64,000 nt of DNA from assembly GCA_032622095.1 (NCBI GenBank), contig CP136069.1:204274690-204338689 (forward strand), read 5' to 3'. The notes beneath the pieces are model-generated. The model saw only the letters and a list, made by a program, of their open reading frames with translations, ran no database searches and was not told the origin of the DNA. Origin of the DNA: Siphonodentalium dalli (taxonomy: Eukaryota; Mollusca; Scaphopoda; Gadilida; Siphonodentaliidae). The stretch's first letter is position 1, and each line of letters starts with the position of its first letter. The translations under genes were made by a program, and so were the position numbers. Below, one piece after another: positions 1-19,935 of this stretch.

Positions 1-3000
1 GGTGTACGGCGTTGAAAGTGGTCACCGCTAATACCTGCTTCAGTTGCATGTTTTTGATGTCTGCTACTTTCAGTGCCACCTGACCCAGATGGATGGGGGT
101 CGTTGCCCGCAGTCCCAGTCTTTCGCCGAAGAACGGGGCGTCTGTCTCTAGCAGCAGTCGGTCCAGCGGGACCGAGCGCAGGCCTTCTTTTTGGACAGGG
201 GAGAAGTCGTAGCAGGCAGCGGTGAAACCAAAATAGCTGGACGAGAAAACTCTGGACCAATCTGCCACCATCTCTGCATTCCCCATGAAACAGTGGATGT
301 GGAATTCCTGCATCGGGGAGCAGATTTGCCGACATTTTTCCAGAGCCAGATAGAAGACTCCCTCGTTCAGCTTGTCGTCCGGCGTTCCTCTGAGATGGAG
401 TATTATTGGTTTTCCGATCCTGGCTCCCATCTTAAGCAGCTGCTTAAAATGGTAGAGTTGAAGAGCCTGATCTGCTTCACTCAGTGGTAGAGATCTGTCC
501 AACCCAATTTCTCCAATCGCCGCGACATGTGGTAGACTGACCAACATCTCTAGATGTTGCCGGAAACCCTCATTTTCTAATAACTTAATCTTCTTAGGGT
601 GACAACCCACGGCGTTCCTCCAGTTAGAATCTCCGGGCAGCTGCGCGGAGGGATACTCTTCTGGGTCGCAGTGGATGTTAAGGCCTCCCAGCAAGGTGAT
701 CGGAACAGTGGAACTCGTTCTGTCCCGGAGGATTTCTAACGCTTCAGTGATAGATGCCGTCTGAATCTTGAAACGATTCGCCATTCTGTTCAGATGGAAA
801 TGGGAGTCTATCCCGGTAAGATAAGGCAAATCCATCAAAGATTGTATCGTTGCGGCATTGCAGTCATACGGAGGTTGATTTGGCACGGACGTCTGTGTTT
901 CCTGAATCGTTGGCTGATTCCTCGGCGACTGTTCCGTGGTCACGGTCCTTCTTTCCTCCGTCTGCTGTCTACCATTTACGCTTGATTCCTGTGATGTGCC
1001 TGGAATGGCTGCTGCCGTTTCCAGGGTACCTCTCACGGGACACGGATGCTCTATCCGCACGGTAATTTTCCTCTGCTCTGACCGGGGTATATTCTTTGGT
1101 TCGGCCCTGCTGGGTCGAACATCTGCGTTTGTTCTACTTGAGGACCTTTCCAGTTCGCCCCTGCTGGGACGAGAGTCAGGTCGCCTGGCCGCCTCCGAAT
1201 CTTCGCCTCTCCTCCTCTTTGGTGGATGGAGCAGCAGGGCAGCAGCGATCAATGGGTCCTTGGCCGATTCCGCATCAAACCCTCTTTTTGCGGTCTCAAG
1301 GGCCTTTTGGACCTCCTCTTTCGAGATCTTTCCCGACTTGATATGTCGCCGCTTCTTCTGTATTTCATTGGGTGGGATGTTTTGAGGGCCCATGAAATGG
1401 TTCAGCTGTGCCTGTGACAGATGGTTAATTAGCAGACATATAGGTCGATAATGTATCATACAGACCGGGTGATTCAGAGGTTGTAGGTCGAAACAGGGCG
1501 GCACCTGCCACCCCTGATCAATACAGAATTTTGTCATCGTCCGGTGATATCCTGCCGAAACTGTTGTTGTTTTAGGAATGATGTCAGTACATCCTCTTAG
1601 TTTACGGTTGGCCCACCGGACCAGCTTCTGCAGCGTTGCCCAATCTGACCTTCCTTTTGTGTGGGACAGCTCATCAGAAGATAACTCCTGCTCGAACAAA
1701 GCCTCGCTTATTTCTACGAGGTCTCTCATCATTTTCATTCTTTGGGACTCGGTCGGGACTTCATCTTCTTCCACCCACCAGCGGGTAGGTAGATGTGTAC
1801 AGAACATGTGTCGACGGAAAGGTTTCGGGTTAAAATTACACCCGATCACCGGACATCTTGCGTCTTGACTATTTGACGGTGCTGGGTGAAGTGTGACCCG
1901 AGGGTTAAACGCCACCCTCCTTTCCCTTGGTCCTGAAAAAGATCTTTCTCGAGACTTTGGAGAAGACTGTCTATACGGCATTGAGGAGGATCTTCGAGTT
2001 TCCGTCTTCTGACTGAAACTGCCCTTCCTTGAACGATATGTTGATGAGGGCCTTGGCGCTCCCGCCTGCTGGCTGAAACTCCGTCCCCTGATTTGTGGTT
2101 CTCTTGGCTTTTGAGTTTCCGTCTGCTGACTGAACCTCTTTTCTGTTGTGCTTGGATGGTCTGGAAAATAAGAGTATTGTTTCACATCAAGTATTTGTCT
2201 TCCCTTCTTGGAAGAGGATACCACCTGAGCATACGACTGTTTAGAATACTCTACTCTTTTGTAAGGGCTATTTCCTCGGAGTTGCTTGGGGGAATTGTCT
2301 TCCGAAAGTTCTGCTGAACTTTTACAGGTCCCCAATATTTTGTCAATTGATTCAACAATCCGGGCATCGGTATCAAAACTTACATCCAAATCATTTACAG
2401 TTATTACCGACTTATTTGAAACGCCCTTGACTACAGGTGTGGAAACCTTAGAGGGGGGTTGGTGGTTATTAGCTGACCTACCTGGAGCAAATGGTCCCAC
2501 GTTCCTGTCTATCCATTCAACGCTCCACTCCAGGAACTGATAGGCGCCCATCTTGGACTCCCGGAGCCAGTCCCCCATCTTCTTGGACTTGGCCAACCGC
2601 ACTTGCTTCTTAAAAGCTTCTTTTCTTTGATCTTCAGACCAGCTGGTCAGAAGAAGCGAAGCCGCCAAATGGTTTGGGCTGTGGTAGATGATGTTGTTTA
2701 GATTCTTTCCATCTATTTCAGCTTCCTTCAACAGGCTATCTTTTGCCTTGCTGTTGAAATCTTTCCATGCCCTTTTCTCGTCCGAATCGCTCTGGTTCTC
2801 TGTCCCCACATTCTGCAGAATCTGGGGTTGTTTTCTAATCACTTCCTCGGCTGACTCTTTGTCTTCGAGCACCATGGTGTTACTTTGCCTGTCTTCCCTC
2901 AGCGGAGGGGAGGTGTCAACCACCATGTTCTCCTTTTCCTCGTTTTCCTCGTCAGATTGTAATAGGATCTCGTCATCCCCGGCAGCTGCAAGGGAATCGG

Positions 3001-3025
3001 TCTCCATTCCTTCTTCCTGCGACAT
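1..3025 (-). CDS. Retrotransposon ORF3: zinc-finger-like motif plus TatD-family metal-dependent nuclease domain (runs off window)
   Basis: An uninterrupted minus-strand frame begins at ATG 3025-3023 and stays open to base 1, giving at least 1,008 codons. No stop codon falls inside the window. Seen: an acidic, Ser/Arg-rich N-terminal half; a Cys/His motif at residues 391-411 (C391, C396, H406, H411; C-X4-C-X9-H-X4-H); and from about residue 737 a TatD-type fold. The TatD hallmarks appear in order: DSHFH (H742, H744), GCHP (807-810), GEIGLD with E839, H877 in HLRG, H911 in HCF, and D962 in LETDAP. Known: TatD proteins are TIM-barrel Mg-dependent deoxyribonucleases, usually ~260-270 aa, using exactly these ligands. 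Inference: an active nuclease carried by the element. It is in the same frame as pol but separated from it by two TAA codons. The intronless frame directly behind pol argues against a host gene. The true C-terminus is unknown. Confidence 0.85.
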   Translation of the reverse strand, partial: MSQEEGMETDSLAAAGDDEILLQSDEENEEKENMVVDTSPPLREDRQSNTMVLEDKESAEEVIRKQPQILQNVGTENQSDSDEKRAWKDFNSKAKDSLLKEAEIDGKNLNNIIYHSPNHLAASLLLTSWSEDQRKEAFKKQVRLAKSKKMGDWLRESKMGAYQFLEWSVEWIDRNVGPFAPGRSANNHQPPSKVSTPVVKGVSNKSVITVNDLDVSFDTDARIVESIDKILGTCKSSAELSEDNSPKQLRGNSPYKRVEYSKQSYAQVVSSSKKGRQILDVKQYSYFPDHPSTTEKRFSQQTETQKPREPQIRGRSFSQQAGAPRPSSTYRSRKGSFSQKTETRRSSSMPYRQSSPKSRERSFSGPRERRVAFNPRVTLHPAPSNSQDARCPVIGCNFNPKPFRRHMFCTHLPTRWWVEEDEVPTESQRMKMMRDLVEISEALFEQELSSDELSHTKGRSDWATLQKLVRWANRKLRGCTDIIPKTTTVSAGYHRTMTKFCIDQGWQVPPCFDLQPLNHPVCMIHYRPICLLINHLSQAQLNHFMGPQNIPPNEIQKKRRHIKSGKISKEEVQKALETAKRGFDAESAKDPLIAAALLLHPPKRRRGEDSEAARRPDSRPSRGELERSSSRTNADVRPSRAEPKNIPRSEQRKITVRIEHPCPVRGTLETAAAIPGTSQESSVNGRQQTEERRTVTTEQSPRNQPTIQETQTSVPNQPPYDCNAATIQSLMDLPYLTGIDSHFHLNRMANRFKIQTASITEALEILRDRTSSTVPITLLGGLNIHCDPEEYPSAQLPGDSNWRNAVGCHPKKIKLLENEGFRQHLEMLVSLPHVAAIGEIGLDRSLPLSEADQALQLYHFKQLLKMGARIGKPIILHLRGTPDDKLNEGVFYLALEKCRQICSPMQEFHIHCFMGNAEMVADWSRVFSSSYFGFTAACYDFSPVQKEGLRSVPLDRLLLETDAPFFGERLGLRATTPIHLGQVALKVADIKNMQLKQVLAVTTFNAVH

Positions 3026-3034
3026 ACTGTATTA

Positions 3035-3058
3035 CTGGAATAGTGAAAAACTGAATTA
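3035..3058 (-). promoter_or_regulatory. Candidate 3' splice site ahead of ORF3, and pol stop
   Basis: Between the pol stop (TAA, 3058-3056) and the ORF3 ATG (3025) the minus strand reads TGCTAATT, then a pyrimidine-rich stretch ending in TTCCAG, with AG at 3036-3035. This gives a branch-point-like motif, a polypyrimidine tract and an acceptor, 9 nt before the ORF3 ATG. A second in-frame TAA (3034-3032) follows, so simple stop readthrough from pol would need two events. I infer a spliced subgenomic mRNA for ORF3, as retroviruses use for env; reinitiation is the alternative. Confidence 0.45.
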
Positions 3059-6000
3059 GCATGTGGGGCAAGTAAATGTATCCATTGCTTGACCAATTTC
3101 AGGTGAAATGTTAACGCATTTACCATGGTACCATTTACAACAATGGTCGCATTGAATCATAAATTGTCCCCGGTAAGCTTTCTGACAAAAACAATACGAC
3201 TTCGTGGATTTGGGGGTAGAGACTATGCCTGTAGTTTTAAAGTTTGTGACACATTTATCCAACCACGGTGGTAGAGTGTTCTCGTAACATCTCTTTAATC
3301 TATCATGGTTAGCTACGACAATAGCCGAATTCAGCAGAATTCTGAACAAGTAAGGGGTGAAAACCTCGGCAATTATCCCCGGACCTTTCCAAAATGGGGC
3401 CAATTTCCGGTTTTTCCCTTTCACTTTGGCCGTATCTAACATGTAGACTAAATCGCCCACCTCGTATGTGTGTTTAAGTATAGACACGTCATAATTTTTC
3501 TTCATTTTTTCTTGGGAGGACTTTAACGTCTTCCTGGCCATTTCGTGGCAAGTTTGCAATTCTTCCCCCAATTTCTGGACATACTCCGGAAACGTCTTAT
3601 CATTTTCATCATGTTTCAGCGGAAACATAATGTGCGTGGGGTGATTTACTTCTCTCCCCAACATTAATTTATTTGCAGTGAAACCCGTACTCGAATTAAC
3701 CGAGGAACGAAGTGCCCCAGCAAGTTGGGGGAGGTATTTATCCCAGTTTTTCTGTGCTTTCTCTACATAGCACCGCACCGCGTCCATCAACGTACGGTTT
3801 TGTCTTTCAATTTGACCGTTAGAACTTGGTCTGTACGGGGTAGAACGCGTCTTATGTATTTGTAGCAGTTCGCATACTGAAGAGAAAAGCTTGCTCTCAA
3901 AACACGGCCCTTGGTCAGTGTGTATATTAAACGGGCATCCAAACCTAGCGAAAAATTCATTAACAGCCGCCATCGCTGTGGTTTCCGCGGTTTGGTCGGG
4001 CAGAGCGATGCATTCCGTCCATTTTGTAAACTGATCGATTATCATTAAAATGTAACGGTTGTTTTTCCAACTTAGAGTAAGAGGGCCCAAAAAATCCATA
4101 TGAACGCGTTCCATGGGAGCTCCTGCATGGAATTTGGTGAGCTCCCACTTAGCATGTCGGGTAGGTTTTTTTCCCTGACTGCATTTTGAACACGCCTTCA
4201 CATACGTTTCCACATCTTTGTTTAGGCCAAACCAGTGGTAATTTTGTTTTATCCTACTCAAAGTTCTGGTTATCCCCTGATGACCAGAAGTTGGAATGTC
4301 ATGGGCTATCGCCAGAATTTCCTTAGCGAATTTCTTTGGAAGAATAGTGGCCAAGTTTCCATTTTTTCTGATTTTCTGGAGGATGCCATTGTTTAACTTA
4401 AAACGCGAGCGATTTATCCAAAAATACTTGGCCGCTGGACTGGCAATAAACATTTCGGCTTCGTTAGGTTCCACCCCCTTATCCAACCAATTTATTACTA
4501 TTAGTAGGTCGGGGTCAGCTAACTGTTCATTGGCCAATTCTCCCGTTTCGCAAATCTCTGCAAGCGAGACCTCATTGGAATCAGATACTGATTGAACCAA
4601 AATTAAAGGTTCAGCAGAATCTTTAATTTTCAGATCTAATTGAGTGTGGACCCAGCCACTTTGATTATCAATGGACCCATATTGAAATTTGGTTTCGGAC
4701 CATTGCTCTGTTACAGGCCATGGTAGAATTGATATTTCTTGAGGTAAACTGCTGTCTGCTGCCACTCTGCTTGTCTGCGATATTTCGGGCATTTCGTTCG
4801 AAAATTCTATGGAACCTTTAGTTAGAGGTATCGCGTAATCTACTTCTTCGTTAAAACGCGCCCAATTTTTGTGCACTCGGATGCAGTATTTACAAGCGTT
4901 GCAAGGCAATCCTGCAGGAATGTCGCCGGCGCTGTAATTATAACACATCTCGGTTAAAGGCGGTCGCGATAGTAGATCGGCATTTGCATGCTTTGCGCCA
5001 GGGCGATGTTGCACTATCATGTCGTACTGGCTCAATTCCTCTAACCAGCGAGCTAATTGGCCTTGGGGTTCTTTGAAACCTATTAACCACCTGAGGCTCC
5101 CATGATCTGTTCGCAATATGAAATGTCTACCCAACAGGTAATGTCGATATTGCCGCGTGAACCGTATTACCGCCAGCAATTCTTTTCGGGTGGTACAATA
5201 CCGGATCTGCTGACCCGATAATATAAAACTTCCATAGCATATGACTCTCTCTTTCCCATTTTGAATTTGGGAAAGCTGCCCACCGATCGCGAAGTTGCTC
5301 GCATCGCAATCTAAGAGAAAAGTGTCTTTTCGATTGGGTAGAGATAAAACCGGGGGGCTGGTTAAGACTATTTTTAATTTATCAAAAGCTTCCTGTTGCT
5401 CAGGCCCCCAGCTGAAAGCCCTTTTGCCTGTGATGGCATACAACGGTTGTGCCAACTCAGCGTAGTTTTCTATAAATTGACGATGGTAATTGAGAAAACC
5501 ACACAACCTTTGTACGTCTTTTGCGTTCTGAGGTTCTGGCCACTTTTTTATGACCTCTGTGGATGATTCCAGTATTTGAATTCCGTCTCTACTGATTTTT
5601 CGTCCCAGAAATTCGACAGTTTGTTGACAAAACACGCATTTAGCCGGTTTGAGCTTTAAATTGTATTGTCGGAATCTCTGCAGAACCGTGCGAATGTTTC
5701 GGAAGTGCGAGTTAATATCAGCACCCATGATCAAAACGTCGTCCAAGAAACATAACGAGATGGACCAAAGTAGGCCCTGAAGCACCAAATTCATTATTCG
5801 CGTGAACGTAAACGTGGCTCCACACAAACCGAATGCTAATTTCCGGAATTCGAACAATCCATATCTCGTTATGAATGCTGACTTGGGGCGGTCTGATACT
5901 TTTAAATTGACTTGATGGTACGCACTTATGCAATCGGCCTTACTTGCCCATACGTTTCCAGCAAGTGCATCTAATGTTTGGTCGATAAGAGGAAGTGGGT

Positions 6001-7288
6001 AGATTTCGCGCTTTGTCACAGCGTTTAACGCGCGATAATCTAAACACCAGCGAACTGAGGAATCTCGTTTACGAATGAGTACCGGTGCCGAACACCACTC
6101 CGAAACCGAGGGTTGAATGACGTTCGCTCCCAACATCTTTTTAAGATGTGCTTCTTCCTCATTTATAAAACACAGCGGTGTTCTACGCATGCGTTGGCGC
6201 ACCGGAGAAGCGTCTCCAGTGGGAATGGTATGCTCTATTTCCGAGAATTCGCCCAAATCAAATTCATGTTTCGCAAAAACGTCTTGGTATTCGCATAAAA
6301 TTTCGGCCATTTCTTCCGCTTCAGTTTGATCTAAAAGCATGATTGAACGATCGTATAGATCCTGTAAATGTGCCGGTATGCGACTTGTTTTGCGTACATG
6401 CCCCGTTATGTGCGAGTGTTGAAAGTTATTCGCTGCGTTGTCCTGGCCGCTGTCCGGACAAATATCAGGGGGTGATTCATCATGCGACGTCTCGGTACGG
6501 TCTTGACCGTCCTCATTTAACGGAAAAGTGGTCTCAATTTCTGACGCATGAGAAACTAACTCGTTGCGTCTCAACTCCACACTATTTTCGTTTAAATTTA
6601 GTATTCCAATTTTAGGTTTGCTACCTGCATCGTGTAATGTACTAAAAATGATCAAACCATGACGCGCAATTGGTTCAATTATATATGTGTTCAAATTCGG
6701 CTGAATTTGACACCGTAATAACATTACTGACCTAGGTGGAATTATCACGTTTTCCTCTATTGACACTCTAGCGACATAGGCTGGCAGAAATTTAACGTTT
6801 GTGATTGACGTGATTGTGTCTTGTCCCAGAGACAAAGTCCCATCACTTACATTGATTCGGGCCTGGTGTTTACTCAAAAAGTCAATCCCTAACAGCATCT
6901 CATCCACAATCGGTGCTACATAAATATTTTCCAAAAATGTAACCTTCCCGATTTTTAGTTCTACCGGACCAATTTGATTTGCTGACATTTGGCTTCCGCG
7001 TTCGGCTGTATTGAGGCGGATAGTCCGAATAGTTGGAGGTTTCGAAACTAGTTTGTTATAAATACCAACCGATAAAATAGTCACATCCGCAGCTGTGTCT
7101 ATTACTGCGGTTATATTTACGTCGGAAATCACAATTGGAATTTTGATGGTTGAGAACGATTTGACTCTGTTGATGGACAAACAACTGTCGCCTGGCGTGT
7201 CAGTAATGGTAGTAATTTGTGTAAGGTCATTCGTTGAAGATTTGTGGGTCGTAATCAGGCCTCGGGATCCGACCCCTTGTCTTTTAAA
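3056..7288 (-). CDS. pol: Ty3/gypsy Pol: protease, reverse transcriptase, RNase H, integrase, C-terminal PHD finger
   Basis: The pol frame is open from just after a TAA at 7303-7301 to the TAA at 3058-3056. The codon at 7180 is TTG, not ATG, so Pol is best read as a Gag-Pol fusion entered by -1 frameshift at 7288-7282. Residues below count from 7180. Seen in order: retropepsin-like DTAAD (~28-32); RT with ADCISAYHQ and the catalytic FLDD (~479); RNase H with DCDASN, KELLAV, TDHGSL and HANADLLSR; integrase with an H-H-C-C zinc module (HDIPTSGH...CSKC), then D in MDFLGP (~1027), D in HTDQG (~1087) and E in GQIERQN with 35 residues between the last two (DD35E); a GPY/F-like segment (WKGPGII); and a terminal C4HC3 PHD finger (~1328-1374) ending CPTC-stop. 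All polymerase and integrase catalytic residues looked for are present. Known: this order is Ty3/gypsy. Odd: a PHD finger rather than a chromodomain, and DTAA rather than the usual D[ST]GA. Confidence 0.95.
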   Translation of the reverse strand, partial: FKRQGVGSRGLITTHKSSTNDLTQITTITDTPGDSCLSINRVKSFSTIKIPIVISDVNITAVIDTAADVTILSVGIYNKLVSKPPTIRTIRLNTAERGSQMSANQIGPVELKIGKVTFLENIYVAPIVDEMLLGIDFLSKHQARINVSDGTLSLGQDTITSITNVKFLPAYVARVSIEENVIIPPRSVMLLRCQIQPNLNTYIIEPIARHGLIIFSTLHDAGSKPKIGILNLNENSVELRRNELVSHASEIETTFPLNEDGQDRTETSHDESPPDICPDSGQDNAANNFQHSHITGHVRKTSRIPAHLQDLYDRSIMLLDQTEAEEMAEILCEYQDVFAKHEFDLGEFSEIEHTIPTGDASPVRQRMRRTPLCFINEEEAHLKKMLGANVIQPSVSEWCSAPVLIRKRDSSVRWCLDYRALNAVTKREIYPLPLIDQTLDALAGNVWASKADCISAYHQVNLKVSDRPKSAFITRYGLFEFRKLAFGLCGATFTFTRIMNLVLQGLLWSISLCFLDDVLIMGADINSHFRNIRTVLQRFRQYNLKLKPAKCVFCQQTVEFLGRKISRDGIQILESSTEVIKKWPEPQNAKDVQRLCGFLNYHRQFIENYAELAQPLYAITGKRAFSWGPEQQEAFDKLKIVLTSPPVLSLPNRKDTFLLDCDASNFAIGGQLSQIQNGKERVICYGSFILSGQQIRYCTTRKELLAVIRFTRQYRHYLLGRHFILRTDHGSLRWLIGFKEPQGQLARWLEELSQYDMIVQHRPGAKHANADLLSRPPLTEMCYNYSAGDIPAGLPCNACKYCIRVHKNWARFNEEVDYAIPLTKGSIEFSNEMPEISQTSRVAADSSLPQEISILPWPVTEQWSETKFQYGSIDNQSGWVHTQLDLKIKDSAEPLILVQSVSDSNEVSLAEICETGELANEQLADPDLLIVINWLDKGVEPNEAEMFIASPAAKYFWINRSRFKLNNGILQKIRKNGNLATILPKKFAKEILAIAHDIPTSGHQGITRTLSRIKQNYHWFGLNKDVETYVKACSKCSQGKKPTRHAKWELTKFHAGAPMERVHMDFLGPLTLSWKNNRYILMIIDQFTKWTECIALPDQTAETTAMAAVNEFFARFGCPFNIHTDQGPCFESKLFSSVCELLQIHKTRSTPYRPSSNGQIERQNRTLMDAVRCYVEKAQKNWDKYLPQLAGALRSSVNSSTGFTANKLMLGREVNHPTHIMFPLKHDENDKTFPEYVQKLGEELQTCHEMARKTLKSSQEKMKKNYDVSILKHTYEVGDLVYMLDTAKVKGKNRKLAPFWKGPGIIAEVFTPYLFRILLNSAIVVANHDRLKRCYENTLPPWLDKCVTNFKTTGIVSTPKSTKSYCFCQKAYRGQFMIQCDHCCKWYHGKCVNISPEIGQAMDTFTCPTC

Positions 7289-10200
7289 TGTTTTTCGAAG
7301 TTAACTTTGGCCTCTTTATTGGGTTTGTTGTTAGCGTTCTTTACGGGGCACTCTCTAATCATGTGACCGTAATCGCGACAGAAAAAACATTGGATTGGTC
7401 GACTAGGCGAAGGCGACCGTGACATCGTTTTAACTGGCTGTTTACTAGCATTACTGAGCACCAATTTGTCTAATTTTCCAAAGACGGTTTCAATTTTTGT
7501 CTCCATAGATAGCATCCTTGACTTCAATGAATGTATATCATTGTTAGACGCGCCCCCTGGAGACTGGGAACGGGAGCCGCGGCCTTCGCGGTCTTGACTC
7601 CATCTAGGTCCAAACGATTGCGTTCTATTATCGTCTGTTTGTCTATTGGAACCCGGGCTCCGATTAAACCTGCGGTTATTTCGGTTAACGGTACGTGATC
7701 TATTTGGTGATTGTACTGCCCGGACATGGCGGAGTCCTTCGTCATCCGAATCTTCTGATTCGGATTTTACCCTCCGAACCCCGCGCCGCGTTCGGTCTGA
7801 GCCCCAAATCGCTACTTGGGTGCACGGGTAAAGTCGAACTTGGTTAATGGCGTCCTTTAGAGTCTCCGGTCTCGCGTTCGCAACATGCCCCCCTGCGTGC
7901 CGATCAGTGGCCCCTTGGCAGAAACGTTGAATGGCTTGCGCATTCACCTCCTGTGGGGGGTGACGTGGGAAAGCGCGTTGTGCCAATGACAAAACTTCCA
8001 GAGACTGGTCCGCCTCTTGCTTAAGTTGCATGAATTGCAACTGCACGGACTGCGGAAGATCGCTGGGTTCAAACCGGCTCGCCAGTAACTGTAAAAGTTC
8101 CAACGACTCGTAATTTGGATTTTGATGCAACATGAGAGTAAGATAATCTCCAGCCTGGCCTGTTAGACACCAACCCAAAGCGGATTTGCGGGTTGGTTCA
8201 TCCCAACGCTGAATGTTCGCCAAGGTATCGAACTTCATACGGAATGTCAGCCAGTTAGATATTCCGTCGTATGAAAAGTTATACGGCAATTTGGGAAACC
8301 AATTATTAGGTTGATCTTGAGCTGCAGCGGCAGGCTCAGGATTTGGGTACATGTTACCACCCATGACTTGTGGAATCAATTGTTGATTATTTGGAGGTAT
8401 GGGCGGTATGTTGCCCAAATAACCCAAATTTGGTGGCGGTATCGGTGGGGCGTTCCCACCTGGCGCAAGAAAACCTTGATTTTGCGGAGGTATTTGTGGC
8501 GCCATAAAAACCGGGTTCTGTGGCGGTACGGGAGGCGCGTTCCCACCTGGCGCAATAAAACCTGGATTCTGCATGTTTACTGGTGGCGCATTACCCCCTG
8601 CAGCAATAAAACCCAGATTTTGCTGCGGTACTAATGGTGCGTTCCCACCTGGCGCAATAAAAGCCTGATTTTGTGGCGGTACTGGTGGCGCAATCCCACC
8701 TGGCGCAATAAAAACCTGATTTTGTGGCGGTACCGGTGGCGCATTCCCGCCTGGCGCAACAAAAGCCTGATTTTGTGGCGGTACTGGTGGCGCAATCCCA
8801 CCTGGCGCAATAAAAACCTGATTTTGTGGCGGTACCGGTGGCGCATTTCCGCCTGGCGCAACAAAAGCCTGATTTTGTGGCGGTACCGGTGGCGCGTTCC
8901 AACCTGGTGCAACAAAAGCCTGATTTTGCTGCGGTACTGGTGGCGCGATCCCACCTGGCGTAATAAAAGCCTGATTTGGTGGCGGTACTGTTTGCACATT
9001 ACCACCTGCTGGTGGCGGCCAGGAATAAAACTGATTTTGCTCTACTCCCCCTTGCGTAACAACCATTTGTGGTGTTACCGGTGGAACATTCTGAGTAGAA
9101 ACTACACTCGGATTGCTCGAAACAACCATATTGGTGGGGTTAATTAATGCTTGGACTTGAGGTGCTGCTGCATTCGCAATATAATGGTTTGGCGGAACCG
9201 GGGGATTTGCCCCCATTAGCATTGCTACACTAGATGGTTGAATATTGGTTGGGTGTGGCGTCTGCTGACACGACTGTTGACTAACCACCGGAGTGTATGG
9301 AGGGTTTGTATTTGGTTGGCCCGTAATAGGAATATAAGGCACCATTTGACCCTGTGCATTCGTTATCATCCAAACAGTTTGCTGTTTGGTGTCATGTCCA
9401 CCCCATGGCGCTGTAACCAATTTACTGTTACTCATCGGAACAGGACTACTCGTTAGGGGATTGACTGTTTTCCCCACGGGGAGATTTTGCCCATTTCCTG
9501 TTGACGGAATTGGCGAAACTGTTTGCGCCCTCGCAAGCACGTTTGTTGCTGACTTTAAAGTTGTCTGATTAAAATCTGCCCCTGGCGGCAAATTATACCC
9601 TGGTGGTGGAGGCATGTTCATTGCCGGGTAAATTTGCAGTGCCTGAGCTTGATGTATTTCTCCGGGTTGGTTTATCACCGGTTTGCTAACTGATGACCCG
9701 AATGAGGTAAGAACCCCGGTTTGAGGTGCGTTTGGGGGCACAAAACCCGACACCGAGTACCCAAACCCAGCTTGACCCGTCGCTAGTGGCCCAGAAAATT
9801 TCCCTGAAACCATGCACGTATCGGAGGTCGGCATACCCCAAATCTTTGTATTAGTCCCCCATGGCGTCCGATCAGGGACATAGCCATGCGGTACTGACAT
9901 TGTGGGCATGGCCCAAGATGTCGGCTGTACTGGCGGTGTCTGAATTGTCTCGTGTTTTGTCCCATTCAGCGGAGCGGGATTAGTCACCAATCGGGATGTC
10001 TGACCCGTTCCTGTACTGGAACAGGTGTAAGTTGACATCGGCACTTGGGTGCCTTTCCAATTCGGCAATTCCCACTTCTCGGGGTCTGGTTTCCACGTTT
10101 TGGAAACTGGCTTCTCCCCCCTTGTGGTCCCCGGATTGGTGCCCACATTAACATGAACTATCCCATCTTTTGTTTTCGGTCTCACGACATCATGACTCTC

Positions 10201-10701
10201 CAATGAATGTTGTAAGCCCCCTTGATTTGAAAACGCGGTGGGAAGGTCATAGCCCCTATCAGCAGAAAGGGGAGGGGATGGTGGTGTGAACATCTCCCGA
10301 AATCTCGACCTATCTAGTCCATGTGGGGAACCCATTATGGCGTCAACCACTTTATTTATATCAGACACCTCTTCCTCTCTATAATCGTTCTGCTGAACAA
10401 TTGTGTGGTGGGAGGTGTTGAGAGGGTCACGCGTGCTCGGGATATAGTTATCCACGGGAGCCCCTTTTGGCGGTATGTGGAAATCCAACAACAACAATTG
10501 CTCTTTGGGTATTCGCATGTGCGATATACCCATCATGTCGTCTCTGGACACAAATCCCATCAACCGCCTTTTTTCAATGATGCTGGCTGCCAATTTGGGA
10601 CCAACACCCTGTATGCTCTGTAGCTCGGCAAAGGAAGCGATATTCACATTTGTCCGAGTAACCGTCGGTGAGTCCGTATTGGCTGCTGCCATCACCGACA
10701 T
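7255..10701 (-). CDS. gag: Ty3/gypsy Gag with N-terminal helix-hairpin-helix, proline-rich repeats, capsid domain and zinc knuckle
   Basis: 1,148 codons from ATG 10701-10699 (context ACAATGT) to TGA 7257-7255. Seen: residues 18-59 match the ComEA-type helix-hairpin-helix pattern (NVNIAS..EL..I.GVGPKLA..II..R), a DNA-binding fold rarely associated with Gag. Residues ~565-770 are tandem ~17-residue repeats built on APPVPPQNQAF(V/I)APGG. Residues ~800-960 contain a retrotransposon Gag/capsid-like region (YDGISNWLTFRMKF, then LASRFEP and QLKQEADQSLEVL). A basic Ser/Arg-rich linker follows, then a CCHC knuckle C-FF-C-RDYG-H-MIRE-C at ~1102-1117. Known: capsid plus CCHC defines Gag; HhH motifs bind DNA without sequence specificity. 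At over 1,100 residues it is large for Ty3/gypsy Gag, mainly because of the N-terminal Pro/Gln/Asn-rich half. Inference: the HhH may help bind cDNA or chromatin. No internal stop, so recently active or under selection. Confidence 0.93.
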   Translation of the reverse strand: MSVMAAANTDSPTVTRTNVNIASFAELQSIQGVGPKLAASIIEKRRLMGFVSRDDMMGISHMRIPKEQLLLLDFHIPPKGAPVDNYIPSTRDPLNTSHHTIVQQNDYREEEVSDINKVVDAIMGSPHGLDRSRFREMFTPPSPPLSADRGYDLPTAFSNQGGLQHSLESHDVVRPKTKDGIVHVNVGTNPGTTRGEKPVSKTWKPDPEKWELPNWKGTQVPMSTYTCSSTGTGQTSRLVTNPAPLNGTKHETIQTPPVQPTSWAMPTMSVPHGYVPDRTPWGTNTKIWGMPTSDTCMVSGKFSGPLATGQAGFGYSVSGFVPPNAPQTGVLTSFGSSVSKPVINQPGEIHQAQALQIYPAMNMPPPPGYNLPPGADFNQTTLKSATNVLARAQTVSPIPSTGNGQNLPVGKTVNPLTSSPVPMSNSKLVTAPWGGHDTKQQTVWMITNAQGQMVPYIPITGQPNTNPPYTPVVSQQSCQQTPHPTNIQPSSVAMLMGANPPVPPNHYIANAAAPQVQALINPTNMVVSSNPSVVSTQNVPPVTPQMVVTQGGVEQNQFYSWPPPAGGNVQTVPPPNQAFITPGGIAPPVPQQNQAFVAPGWNAPPVPPQNQAFVAPGGNAPPVPPQNQVFIAPGGIAPPVPPQNQAFVAPGGNAPPVPPQNQVFIAPGGIAPPVPPQNQAFIAPGGNAPLVPQQNLGFIAAGGNAPPVNMQNPGFIAPGGNAPPVPPQNPVFMAPQIPPQNQGFLAPGGNAPPIPPPNLGYLGNIPPIPPNNQQLIPQVMGGNMYPNPEPAAAAQDQPNNWFPKLPYNFSYDGISNWLTFRMKFDTLANIQRWDEPTRKSALGWCLTGQAGDYLTLMLHQNPNYESLELLQLLASRFEPSDLPQSVQLQFMQLKQEADQSLEVLSLAQRAFPRHPPQEVNAQAIQRFCQGATDRHAGGHVANARPETLKDAINQVRLYPCTQVAIWGSDRTRRGVRRVKSESEDSDDEGLRHVRAVQSPNRSRTVNRNNRRFNRSPGSNRQTDDNRTQSFGPRWSQDREGRGSRSQSPGGASNNDIHSLKSRMLSMETKIETVFGKLDKLVLSNASKQPVKTMSRSPSPSRPIQCFFCRDYGHMIRECPVKNANNKPNKEAKVNFEKHLKDKGSDPEA
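7282..7288 (-). promoter_or_regulatory. -1 ribosomal frameshift slippery site TTTAAAA between gag and pol
   Basis: The minus strand reads T TTA AAA with TTA and AAA in the gag frame, the canonical X XXY YYZ phase. The pol frame is -1 relative to gag. It becomes open only 12 nt upstream of the heptamer (TAA at 7303-7301), and gag stops 25-27 nt downstream of it, so the heptamer lies in the ~45-nt overlap. I did not identify a downstream pseudoknot by eye. Confidence 0.75.
8390..9000 (-). repeat. 51-bp coding minisatellite in gag (about 12 units)
   Basis: Near-identical 51-bp units (17 codons) encode APPVPPQNQAF-type repeats. Alternating unit types (NQAFVAPGGN and NQVFIAPGGI) recur as higher-order pairs, pointing to recent unequal exchange within gag. 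The length is a multiple of three throughout, so the Gag frame is kept. Confidence 0.85.
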
Positions 10702-11061
10702 TGTTTTTCACGTTCGGAAAAAGATGTGGCAAAAGCAATTGCCACCTCCAAAAAAAAAAAAATCCGACGGGCCACGGTGCAAAGAATTTTATGGTGCTAG
10801 ATACAAACACGGTGCGAAGAAATTATGTTGCGGCAAAAAAAAATCAATGGGGAGAAAATATCTAGAAAAGACACAGAAAACAGTGTTACATATAATTGAG
10901 ATGAAAAGAGAAAAGTGGATTGTAAAAATTATCAAAGATAATTACGGATTGAAAAAATGTGAAAAACTATCTGTGAGAAAATAGTGAAATTACCGGCGAG
11001 GAAAAAATATCAAACAGTGCTTCAAAAAGCGCCAAAGGTCCGTGTAAGGTCGACGACGCCA
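10702..11061 (-). other. Retrotransposon 5' leader between candidate PBS and gag
   Basis: A/T-rich, non-coding 5' untranslated region of the element, with an oligo-T tract just upstream of gag on the minus strand. I see no conserved ORF. The candidate primer-binding site lies at its far end. Confidence 0.5.
11044..11061 (-). promoter_or_regulatory. Candidate primer-binding site
   Basis: The minus strand downstream of the proposed LTR end reads TGGCGTCGTCGACC. TGG pairs with the CCA end of a tRNA, and a three-base AAA spacer separates it from the LTR. I cannot name the tRNA from sequence alone; the acceptor-stem complement has a Ser/Arg-tRNA-like look only. Confidence 0.4.
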
Positions 11062-11096
11062 TTTTGTAATGAATGTGCATATAATATTACAAATAA

Positions 11097-11103
11097 ACTC
11101 ACC
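11097..11103 (-). promoter_or_regulatory. Candidate 5' splice site in the LTR
   Basis: Minus-strand ATCG/GTGAGTTT is a near-consensus donor, about 165 nt downstream of a TATA-predicted start (~11,270). Paired with the acceptor at 3035 it would remove gag-pol and place a short leader in front of ORF3. Confidence 0.4.
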
Positions 11104-11297
11104 GATAGTAAAGTCTGTGCAGGTGTAGATAGTGTATGAATAACAATAATCATCAGCAAAAACATATACGTCTGTTTAATAAGTTGGTTTGGATTGAAGA
11201 GAGCGGGCGATGACGTATTTCCCACAATTCCGTAGTTCCGCTGAACTCCGTGAACATCCGCTCCTCTTCGTGTGTTTCCGGTGAAATCCGGCACCAT

Positions 11298-11307
11298 CTT
11301 TATAGAG
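11298..11307 (-). promoter_or_regulatory. TATA-like element in candidate LTR
   Basis: CTCTATAAAG on the minus strand inside the proposed LTR, in the expected promoter position and orientation for the retrotransposon. Confidence 0.4.
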
Positions 11308-11500
11308 TTACCTTTCTTCAGTTAGCTAACCAAAGTGGCCTCGCATTCCTCTATAGTATCAGGTTAAAATCTCTTCAGCGAGCGGAACAAACGCACGATA
11401 TTTACGCGCTATTTACTTAAAAACCCATAAATACAACATCAGTTATCAGAATTACAGATTTGTTAGTTTAATCCCGGATTGGAAAACATATCACCATTTT

Positions 11501-11702
11501 CAGTGACAGATGGTAAACCACAGACTAGTACCGGTACCCAGCCAGTGAACCACAGACTAGTACCGGTACCCAGCCAGTGACAGATAGTAAACCACAGATT
11601 AGTACCGGTACCCAGCCAGTGACAGAGTGATTAGTACCGGTACCCAGCCAGTGACAGATAGTAAACCACAGACTAGTACCGGTACCCAGCCAGTGACAGA
11701 GT
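11501..11702. repeat. Minisatellite with AGTACCGGTACCCAGCCAGTGA core (~5 copies)
   Basis: Units of about 29-43 bp share a TAGTACCGGTACCCAGCCAG core with a palindromic GTACCGGTAC centre. They lie just outside the candidate LTR in otherwise AT-rich DNA. The flanks at 11,439-11,500 and 11,703-12,204 show nothing else recognisable. Confidence 0.8.
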
Positions 11703-12212
11703 CGCTCTGGTAGAGATTATCCTTGTGTGTACAAAGGCAATCGTTATTTCTAATACATGCACCAAATATTCGTAATAATTCAAACCCGTCTACGCTAGCG
11801 AACACATACGAAAACGAAAGCACGCGCATACGTAATAGATCAGAAATCTGGGAAAACACGCGAAATTAACATAATTTATTTGTATTTGAAAATTTCTGTC
11901 GGTTGAGTTGTTATAAAATTATATGGATTAATAGTGACACAAATTTATGCTAGTTAGTTCAGTTATGATATTTAACATTCCAACAAAATTTTAAGGTATG
12001 TGTTTTTTATTTGTAGTTTTATTTGTGTCATTAGACGTGAACAATGTAAGTTAAAGGGGCATGTCCTTGCCAATCAAATTATCGGGTTCTATGCTTTGCA
12101 AGTGTTCACGTCCTTTGTTGGACGATGAGGGATTAAGACCACATAAATGTCCAAATATTAAAATAGGTCTTAATCCGAATCGTCTAATTTGTTGGACTAA
12201 CACACACCATAC

Positions 12213-13397: not shown

Positions 13398-13748
13398 TGA
13401 GATACCAGAGAGACCACTCATAGACGGGTGTTACAAATGTTACAAATGATTTAAAGTCCCCAGTAGAAAACCGCAGCATATTTTATTCCTACCGTCTCAC
13501 TGTAGTGACATGTTACAATGCGTTACAAGTGTTACAATATGTTCTGAGATACCAGAGAGACCGCTCGTAGATGGGTGTTACAAATGATATAAAGTCCCCA
13601 GTAGAAAACCGCAGCATATTTTATTCCTATCGTCTCAGTGTAACGACATGCTACAATGCGTTACAAGTGTTACAATATTTCCTGAGATACCAGAGAGACC
13701 GCTCATAGACGGGTGTTACAATGTTACAAATGATTTAAAGTCCCCAGG
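13398..13748. repeat. ~140-bp tandem repeat, about 2.4 copies
   Basis: Units beginning CTGAGATACCAGAGAGACC start at 13398, 13544 and 13682. Each carries GTTACAA-type short repeats and a CCCCAGTAGAAAACCGCAGC segment. The DNA from 13,247 to 13,397 contains degenerate GTTACAA repeats only. Confidence 0.75.
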
Positions 13749-18577: not shown

Positions 18578-19935
18578 TAGTCCAAGTCTTCTCGTACTAA
18601 AGCCGGCTAAGATATTGGGATGGAGGTGCCGGTCTTTAGTCCGAGATCGCGCGCATAGCCGTCTTATGACACGAGTTAAGCGTTAATGACCCGCTCCAAT
18701 AAAACCACAATTATATGAAATAAAATATCACAATTGCGACAATAAAAGATATTTTCCGCAGAAGACATGCTATTTGATCTGAACCCCACATCAGTTGTGA
18801 ATTGAAAGCGGTAATTCAATGCAAAAAGAGACATTTACCGCAATGTTTACACATTTTTAAAAGTATGCGAACTCAGTTGACCTCGCGAATTCGGCATTTT
18901 CCGTTGAAAATATTCCGTAGATTTTCGACTGACAACGCAAATTACGACGAATTCTCCATTGTAATCGTAATTATGTGTGTCAATAAATAAAAAATAAATA
19001 GATTAATTAAACATTGAAGATATAAATGTAATACATTAAATAAATTACGGGGAATTACAACCCTCTCAAAGTTTAAAACAGTGTAAACACAACGAGCATT
19101 AGAATAAATAATATGGTGCTACATTTCCCACATTTGGTGGACTTCAGCGAAATTAAGATATATACTAAGCGAACAGAGCAATATACTGCTCTTGTTAAGC
19201 ACACAAAAAATCAAACAAAATTTGTATAAATTTTTAACCTTAAGTTTGAAAAGTCCCACTAAAACGGAAGAACTATATTTCGAAACTGTGTGATTCGGTT
19301 CTCCGATTATTTTATCAACACAAAAGTCAAAATGCACATGGATGAAAATCACACGCATGGCAAGTCAGACACAAGAGTTCTAATTTGCTCCAATTTTGAC
19401 AAGTTGCTTGCGAAAATTGTCAACAAAACTACCTTTCTGATCCTCCATTATGTCATTAAGTTTTTAGTGCGGGAATTGTTCTCAAAGCACATTGGAAACT
19501 GGACTTTGCGGCGATCGGTTTTCGCCATTTGTTCTGAAAACCCCCGCGCTATATATAGAAACGGAAACTAGAATACTCAGAACAAACACCGGACAATGCC
19601 GAAGTTCTTCGGAACCTGAGTTCGGCTTTCAGTTAAGTAAACAAACAGAAAAAACAACGATGTTTGTGGCAATCAACCGGAATATTCTATGTGTAATTTA
19701 ACATTAAAGTTAGATTATTATACACCATTCTGACCATAAGATGTCACTCTTTCCGACGTATATAGCATCATGTATTGCTTTGTTAGGTAAATCGAGTAAA
19801 ATACACCACAGATTCCCGCCACAGATCCTGGGCGTAACTCGTGCCATAAGAAGGCTATGCTCGCGATCTCGGACTAAAGACCGGCACCTCCATCCCAATA
19901 TCTTAGCCGGCTTTAGTACGAGAAGACTTGGACTA
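18578..19935. mobile_element. Non-autonomous Mutator-like element, ~105-bp TIRs, 9-bp target duplication
   Basis: The 1,358-bp element begins TAGTCCAAGTCTTCTCGTAC and ends with the exact complement. The arms stay nearly identical for about 105 bp, including AAAGCCGGCTAAGATATTGG. AAATATATC flanks both sides (18569-18577 and 19936-19944). Long TIRs with a 9-bp duplication are the usual signature of Mutator-like elements. The short internal frames resemble nothing I know. Confidence 0.8.

Follow-up and report, generated by a model that had tools for sequence, protein, structure and literature searches.

A TatD nuclease domain in the third open reading frame of a Ty3/gypsy-type retrotransposon lineage of the scaphopod Siphonodentalium dalli

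The genome of the scaphopod Siphonodentalium dalli contains a Ty3/gypsy-type long terminal repeat (LTR) retrotransposon in which gag and pol are followed by a third open reading frame (ORF3) with a predicted TatD-family nuclease domain. The element was recognized in a stretch of 64,000 nucleotides (nt) on contig C9 (C9:204274690-204338689, hereafter the window), and we searched the whole 2.23-Gb assembly of nine contigs for its relatives. It occupies C9:204273951-204286127 on the minus strand (12,177 bp), most of it inside the window. Its features are listed below in window positions unless a contig is named.

11065..11438, minus strand: 5' LTR, 374 nt, TGTTG...TTACA
11097..11102, minus strand: possible donor-like GTGAGT in the 5' LTR, a weak candidate from splice scoring
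11049..11061, minus strand: primer binding site, 13 nt
7255..10701, minus strand: gag, 1,148 amino acids (aa)
10516..10650, minus strand: helix-hairpin-helix domain (PF12836) at the gag N-terminus, Pfam E 1.4e-7
8421..9057, minus strand: tandem repeats in gag, 51-nt (17-aa) unit, repeat families D1 and D2, two spacings differing from 51
7345..7392, minus strand: CCHC zinc knuckle near the gag end, Pfam match under the curated cut-off
3056..7300, minus strand: pol frame with protease, reverse transcriptase, RNase H, integrase and PHD finger (Pfam)
3059..3193, minus strand: PHD finger at the pol C-terminus, Pfam E 3.5e-8
3035..3054, minus strand: putative acceptor-like site ending 9 nt before the ORF3 ATG, from splice scoring
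2..3025, minus strand, with the stop at C9:204274664-204274666: ORF3, 1,008 of 1,016 codons in the window
1793..1855, minus strand: zinc-finger-like C-x4-C...H...H motif, ORF3 aa 391-411, by motif inspection
8..811, minus strand: TatD domain (PF01026), ORF3 aa 739-1006, Pfam E 1.1e-31
C9:204273951-204274327, minus strand, left of the window: 3' LTR, 377 nt

The pol frame lies in the -1 frame relative to gag and shares 46 nt with it; its end is 30 nt ahead of the ORF3 ATG. The original prediction, made from the letters of the window, had described gag and pol as intact and on the same strand as ORF3, which the frames and Pfam domains confirm, and had set the right edge of the element at 11438, the outer edge of the 5' LTR. 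It had also described an intronless ORF3 of more than 1,008 codons behind pol, and extension to the left of base 1 completed this frame: ORF3 continues for nine codons (stop counted) to a full length of 1,016 aa and is followed by a purine tract (GTGGGGAAGAG) and the 3' LTR. Since the 3' LTR lies beyond the ORF3 stop, the frame, intronless and enclosed by the two LTRs, is inside the element, and an adjoining host gene is ruled out. The LTR pair of the window copy aligns with no substitution and a single 3-nt gap. Three more copies, two on C1 and one on C8, were traced from LTR to LTR, and in each the two LTRs are identical. Target site duplications of 4 bp (ATAT, GATT, ATGA) were present in three of the four traced copies, and none was found at the window copy. 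The primer binding site is the exact complement of the 3' end of tRNA-Ser(AGA) with CCA added, the gene of this transfer RNA (tRNA) being on C8; the match was tested in the window family only, and the diverged families B and D described below agree in the first bases only. The order protease, reverse transcriptase, RNase H and integrase, the paired TG...CA LTRs, the primer site, the purine tract and the short target site duplications are those of Ty3/gypsy elements, and the window element is a young, complete and recently active member of this type. Searched with the 1,008 ORF3 residues encoded in the window, the genome yielded 62 matching stretches, several of which make up one copy. The full query was matched at five places with 99-100% identity (window copy counted, a TGA inside one), so that ORF3 of the window copy is not a chance frame.

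Both the Cys/His motif and the TatD domain previously claimed for ORF3 were recovered. PF01026 matches across the domain with 110.5 bits against a curated cut-off of 27, and all six named metal ligands are present (H742, H744, E839, H877, H911, D962). The N-terminal HxH motif (H742, H744) assigns the domain to the class II (HxH) TatDs, the class that includes TATDN2 and TATDN3 as defined in the available text of PMC10085689. The TatD domains of the elements score below every curated cut-off of the NCBIfam TatD models (TIGR00010, TatD, two metal-dependent hydrolases and QatD). We compared a structure model of ORF3 aa 385-1008, built on seven sequences, with the PDB using Foldseek, as had been proposed. 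Sixteen matches were obtained at E 0.001 or better, of which eleven, including human TATDN1 and TATDN3, are titled TatD or TATDN, and the best matches are TatD structures. The remaining five (6l25 twice, 3e2v twice, 3gg7) are titled deoxyribonuclease, amidohydrolase or metalloprotein, and we take them to be TatD relatives as well. The predicted local distance difference test (pLDDT) of the model averages 51, with ten-residue blocks at 62-94 for about aa 805-964 and at 31-71 after 964. Less favourable is the low confidence (pLDDT below 40) at about aa 739-804, the first 65 or so residues of the TatD part, which include the HxH motif. From its sequence, the ORF3 TatD is nonetheless very probably a catalytically active nuclease.

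The arrangement seen in the window recurs in diverged families. Family A is that of the window; the ligand table and the trees cover families A to K, and family L, found later, stands outside both. Six diverged places fetched from the genome gave families B, C and D, in which gag, pol and ORF3 have the order and strand of the window element, with pol 56-57% identical along its length in unbroken copies (lower and higher in pieces of broken ones). Candidate LTR-like repeat pairs of 98-99% identity were found at three of the six places, one each in B, C and D; the pair in B runs into the limit of the fetched sequence, and the pair in C has tentative ends. A search of the genome with PF01026 returned 529 candidates, 150 of which were scored, and open frames of at least 600 aa contain 82 of these 150 matches. 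Among eight more TatD loci that were fetched, seven (L038 to L044; families G, E, F and H to K) have frames of 513-2,082 aa, all seven with gypsy pol upstream on the same strand. The distance from pol to the ORF3 ATG is 41-99 nt in E, F, I, J and K and 1,495 nt in G, while in H (L041, C5:240191000-240198200) TatD is fused in frame with pol in the 2,082-aa frame and the PHD finger is gone. The eighth locus, L045, has a 301-aa frame with a CCCH-like stretch ahead of TatD and no pol match within 3.3 kb. Family L (locus L046) has an 884-aa ORF3 frame with all six ligand motifs behind a pol match, and with it the number of families with TatD behind pol rises to twelve. The copy at L047 has decayed: HFQ replaces HFH and the frame is interrupted. 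As a side observation, TatD frames of about 300 aa, L045 among them, were seen at C6:103057155, C3:80495244, C7:145794264, C1:56547136, C1:9271635, C6:103415839 and C5:96621661.

The linkage was also examined from the side of pol, with 84 matches to the pol C-terminus scored out of 4,959 candidates. A match reaching TatD lies within 9 kb downstream in at least 49 of the 84, and none lies upstream or on the opposite strand. Fourteen of the other 35 have an ORF3 match (window family or family I), 12 of which reach the TatD part, and the N-terminal ORF3 part only is found at C4:217795045 and C8:186215626. With L046 added, ORF3 sequence is located downstream in 64 of the 84 matches, the remaining 20 being outside this examination. 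The weight of these counts is reduced by the many near-identical copies of one family among the 84 matches, which are not independent. In family I, nine copies match the full 966-residue query at 99-100% identity. The second linked copy on which the original prediction hung was found several times over, with the order gag-pol-TatD, or pol-TatD, in further copies and in diverged families. ORF3 is almost certainly a conserved gene encoded by the element.

TatD domains of families A to K are mutually 22-53% identical; compared with the window, those of the other families are 24-45% identical and their integrase parts 46-70%. All eleven families, and L045 as well, retain the six ligands (H, H, E, H, H, D). 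For the whole ORF3 frame, the ratio of nonsynonymous to synonymous substitution rates (dN/dS) was 0.14-0.44 in seven within-family pairs; across families, synonymous changes have reached saturation, and more differences fall on codon position 3 than on positions 1 and 2. Separate trees of integrase and of TatD, rooted at midpoint (family J being a long branch), both recover a clade of A, B, C, D and I and the groups D+I and F+H (94/94 and 89/88 in the TatD trees). The group E+K appears in the integrase tree and the larger TatD tree and is left open by the smaller one. Two results fit less well: the trees conflict, at weak support, on the partner of A (D+I versus B+C, 83-87), and the dN/dS comparison across copies that had been suggested for ORF3, purifying-like for the whole frame, gave noisy values for the TatD part alone (0 to 0.81, few changes). 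As far as these sequences tell, ORF3 shows signs of purifying selection and of having descended jointly with pol, and TatD looks like an acquisition that preceded the family split and was kept as ORF3 since then, a long-kept working part of the lineage.

In part of the lineage, ORF3 contains a second enzyme domain. In families E, F and K (loci L038, L039 and L044), ORF3 has Tpt1/KptA (PF01885) on the N-terminal side of TatD, with E-values of 7e-32, 7.6e-48 and 2.5e-41, respectively, and the Pfam scan of the window ORF3 gave TatD alone and no PF01885. Of the 150 scored TatD matches, 33 have Tpt1 on the same strand no more than 6 kb upstream, and none has it downstream or on the other strand; of 83 Tpt1 matches, 37 sit upstream of TatD in this way and 46 do not. 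Separately, one pol relative from the protein search below (P0049) has PF01885 between the integrase core and the PHD finger. The domain common to ORF3 of E, F and K and to the P0049 pol is that of Tpt1/KptA, an RNA 2'-phosphotransferase (PMC6333775, available text). The viral KptA cases in the available text of PMC9503650 are from phages, sawfly nucleopolyhedrosis viruses, a mimivirus and a few RNA viruses; the string "retrotranspos" does not occur there, and the retrotransposon setting is a difference from these cases. Among the papers listed by our literature search, none is on KptA/Tpt1 in retrotransposons, as judged from titles and the first lines of abstracts.

Two further domains, outside the description given by the original prediction, are the helix-hairpin-helix of gag and the PHD finger of pol. 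The former matched the solved chains of EEPD1 and ComE operon protein 1, with matches also in families B, C and D. For the latter, the nearest solved relatives by sequence match are BPTF, PHF2 and DIDO1, with PHF8 also high. These four proteins are readers of histone H3 trimethylated at lysine 4 (H3K4me3). Pfam detected the PHD finger in pol of families A, E, F, G, I and K and gave no match in H and J (for J at a threshold of E 0.01); in B, C and D, the pol alignments, used there without a Pfam scan, reach its end. Chromodomain-bearing Ty3/gypsy elements have a histone-reader-like domain at the integrase C-terminus; the place is similar in the window element, but the domain is a BPTF/PHF2-like PHD finger. 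The integrase-PHD part of pol has 502 protein relatives at E 1e-60 or better, including proteins of Ostrea edulis and Pinctada imbricata. PF00628 was present in 111 of the 120 relatives listed, a share favoured by the PHD-containing query. Among the matches listed, the PHD finger is found in Ostrea, Pinctada, Haliotis, Nucella and Lytechinus and not in Elysia, Gigantopelta and Ptychodera. Three pol relatives (P0021, P0027, P0052) are labelled as bacterial metagenome-assembled genomes (Sedimenticola, Thiodiazotropha); the Thiodiazotropha records are named after clam hosts, which makes host DNA in these bins likely.

Relatives of ORF3 were also found among protein records. A search with the single sequence found one protein, from Dreissena polymorpha, and a profile of families A to D and this protein found five more, one of them from Mytilus coruscus. 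The six ligands are also present in the relatives P0001, P0002, P0003 and P0005 (P0006 ends before the last ligand and P0004 is outside the ligand table). By eye, a zinc-finger stretch is common to P0001, P0003 and P0006 and an N-terminal helical stretch to P0001, P0003 and P0004. Viral contigs scanned with the ORF3 profile gave 36 pattern-matched stretches, none of which was confirmed.

The closest known systems differ in the enzyme. Juno and Vesta of bdelloid rotifers also have an enzymatic ORF3 behind pol, one kind being a 3'-5' nuclease, but this ORF3 is a DEDDy exonuclease or a GDSL esterase, unrelated to TatD, and the enzymes were gained independently at least twice in the bdelloid lineages (PMC5408684). 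In the available text of that paper, TatD is not mentioned and PHD occurs once only, in the title of a cited work about CR1-like non-LTR elements. Ty3/gypsy elements of the orchid Phalaenopsis similarly captured a nucleic-acid-modifying enzyme in an extra ORF, in that case an AlkB-type N6-methyladenosine (m6A) demethylase, and neither TatD nor PHD occurs in the available text (PMC9289625). TATDN2, of the HxH class, is reported to cut RNA both as a 3' exonuclease and as an endonuclease and to act on R-loops, and for other TatDs 3'-5' exonuclease and apurinic/apyrimidinic endonuclease activities are reported (available texts of PMC12709183 and PMC10085689). With TATDN2 and the class II TatDs of these papers, ORF3 shares the HxH class and a long N-terminal extension; they are host genes, however, and the comparison is by description and not by TATDN2 sequence. 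Judged by titles and the first lines of abstracts, our literature search listed no paper on a TatD-bearing retroelement, though most subscription-journal papers lie outside it, and the word TatD does not occur in two surveys of mollusc elements. Within the searchable literature, the statement that no Ty3/gypsy lineage defined by TatD has been described thus holds. Enzymatic ORF3s are already known in LTR retrotransposons; a TatD nuclease as ORF3 appears to be new.

Spliced messages are described as the typical source of ORF3 products in LTR retrotransposons (PMC5408684, available text). We scanned nine families for splice sites, by a loose rule and with an approximate scoring matrix, leaving out H, where ORF3 is fused, and C, where its start is unclear. 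Eight of the nine have a pyrimidine-rich YAG site 2-29 nt ahead of the ORF3 ATG. By matrix scoring, the acceptor is better than 95% of the family's own windows in five of nine, with A, F and G at 9-10%, and the combined acceptor scores give a Fisher value of 2e-6. The GTGAGT of the LTR is the best donor-like site from the 5' LTR to 900 nt into gag, and donor-like sites are also present in the LTRs of B and D. Several observations weigh against splicing. The same loose YAG rule is satisfied in 239 of 706 background windows, family J has no acceptor-like site, and the Fisher value is too optimistic because the gap between pol and ORF3 is non-coding. The LTR donor ranks only ninth in the element stretch of the window, six of the eight higher sites being in the gag repeats. 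Because eight donor-like sites outscore it, we give an even chance to the translation of ORF3 from a spliced subgenomic messenger RNA in the manner of env.

In the usual view of LTR retrotransposons, primer, RNA-repair and complementary DNA (cDNA) end steps are left to RNase H, integrase and the host. Taken as a whole, we lean slightly towards an explanation in which TatD was captured before the families split, ORF3 is expressed by splicing and the enzyme processes ends. The N-terminal modules of ORF3 would bring the nuclease to the nucleoprotein complex of the element, where TatD would trim or resolve RNA, DNA or RNA-DNA-hybrid ends during reverse transcription, with primer remnants, cDNA 3' ends and damaged genomic RNA as candidate substrates. 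In several families, Tpt1/KptA would add the removal of RNA 2'-phosphates, and integration may be directed to H3K4me3 chromatin or promoters through the PHD finger of pol. An enzyme kept across a retroelement lineage suggests a life-cycle step for which the host supply is insufficient. The fusion to pol in family H and the recurrent company of Tpt1 favour end processing over attack on host factors, without being decisive; against this, TatD substrates are so broad that sequence is unable to choose between processing of the element's own cDNA or RNA and counter-defence. A role of TatD in end processing during the element's own replication, and not in attack on host defences, stays a little short of an even chance. 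More tentatively, ORF3 could be a repair or finishing kit (TatD, in part with Tpt1) beside the helix-hairpin-helix of gag and a PHD-guided integrase, with which primer tRNA would be processed, cleaved genomic RNA mended and cDNA ends finished.

A nuclease of counter-defence or rivalry, acting on host small RNAs, R-loops, sensor ligands or the cDNA of competitors, is a possible but rather unlikely alternative. Such a function would agree with the faster evolution of ORF3 than of pol (see the TatD and integrase identities above), as is often the case for conflict proteins, and viral KptA domains have been discussed as RNA repair in host-virus conflict (PMC9503650, available text). TatD nucleases also belong to the Qat anti-phage system, yet the match to the QatD model is far under its cut-off. 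The conserved catalytic site, the purifying-like changes within families and the descent of the gene with pol instead of swapping argue for the other side, and the pol fusion of family H fits a role in the replication complex.

It is improbable, too, that TatD was captured more than once and marks no single lineage. This reading draws on family J, whose long-branch TatD groups with the non-element TatD of L045, a result that counts against a single acquisition, and whose pol gives no PHD match at E 0.01. By pattern match, however, J shares zinc-finger-like and HWR-like motifs upstream of TatD with ten other ORF3 rows, while the TatDs of A to I and K fall together in a group that excludes J and L045 (97/99), with subgroups that recur in the integrase tree.

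Much less probable is an env-like or structural ORF3 with a TatD fold that binds without catalysis. The position of ORF3 is that of env in retroviruses, and the frame includes long low-confidence stretches and a zinc-finger-like module, but the retention of all six metal ligands in the eleven families argues against a non-catalytic module. An env glycoprotein is ruled out by the absence of any membrane-type hydrophobic stretch in the window ORF3 (maximum 19-residue hydropathy 1.13); over twelve ORF3 rows the maximum is 1.74, inside the Tpt1 domain of family F. Finally, TatD frames without pol nearby do exist in the genome (L045), but a host gene or chance passenger beside the element has next to no likelihood for a frame that is intronless, inside LTRs, copied with the element, behind pol in twelve families and followed by a 3' LTR in four copies.

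The lineage would explain many TatD matches in the genome, which annotation could mistake for an expansion of host genes. Its diverged families are numerous, and some are represented by several near-identical copies that are still intact. With their nuclease and, in part, an RNA 2'-phosphotransferase, they offer a life-cycle step that is open to experiment and show that env is one among several possible occupants of the ORF3 position.

An Rfam scan of the window at gathering thresholds gave nothing. Repeats lie beside the 5' LTR at 11469-11722, followed by a doubled 138-nt unit at 13438-13713, and an inverted repeat pair of 104 nt with 96% complementarity is formed by 18578-18681 and 19832-19935.

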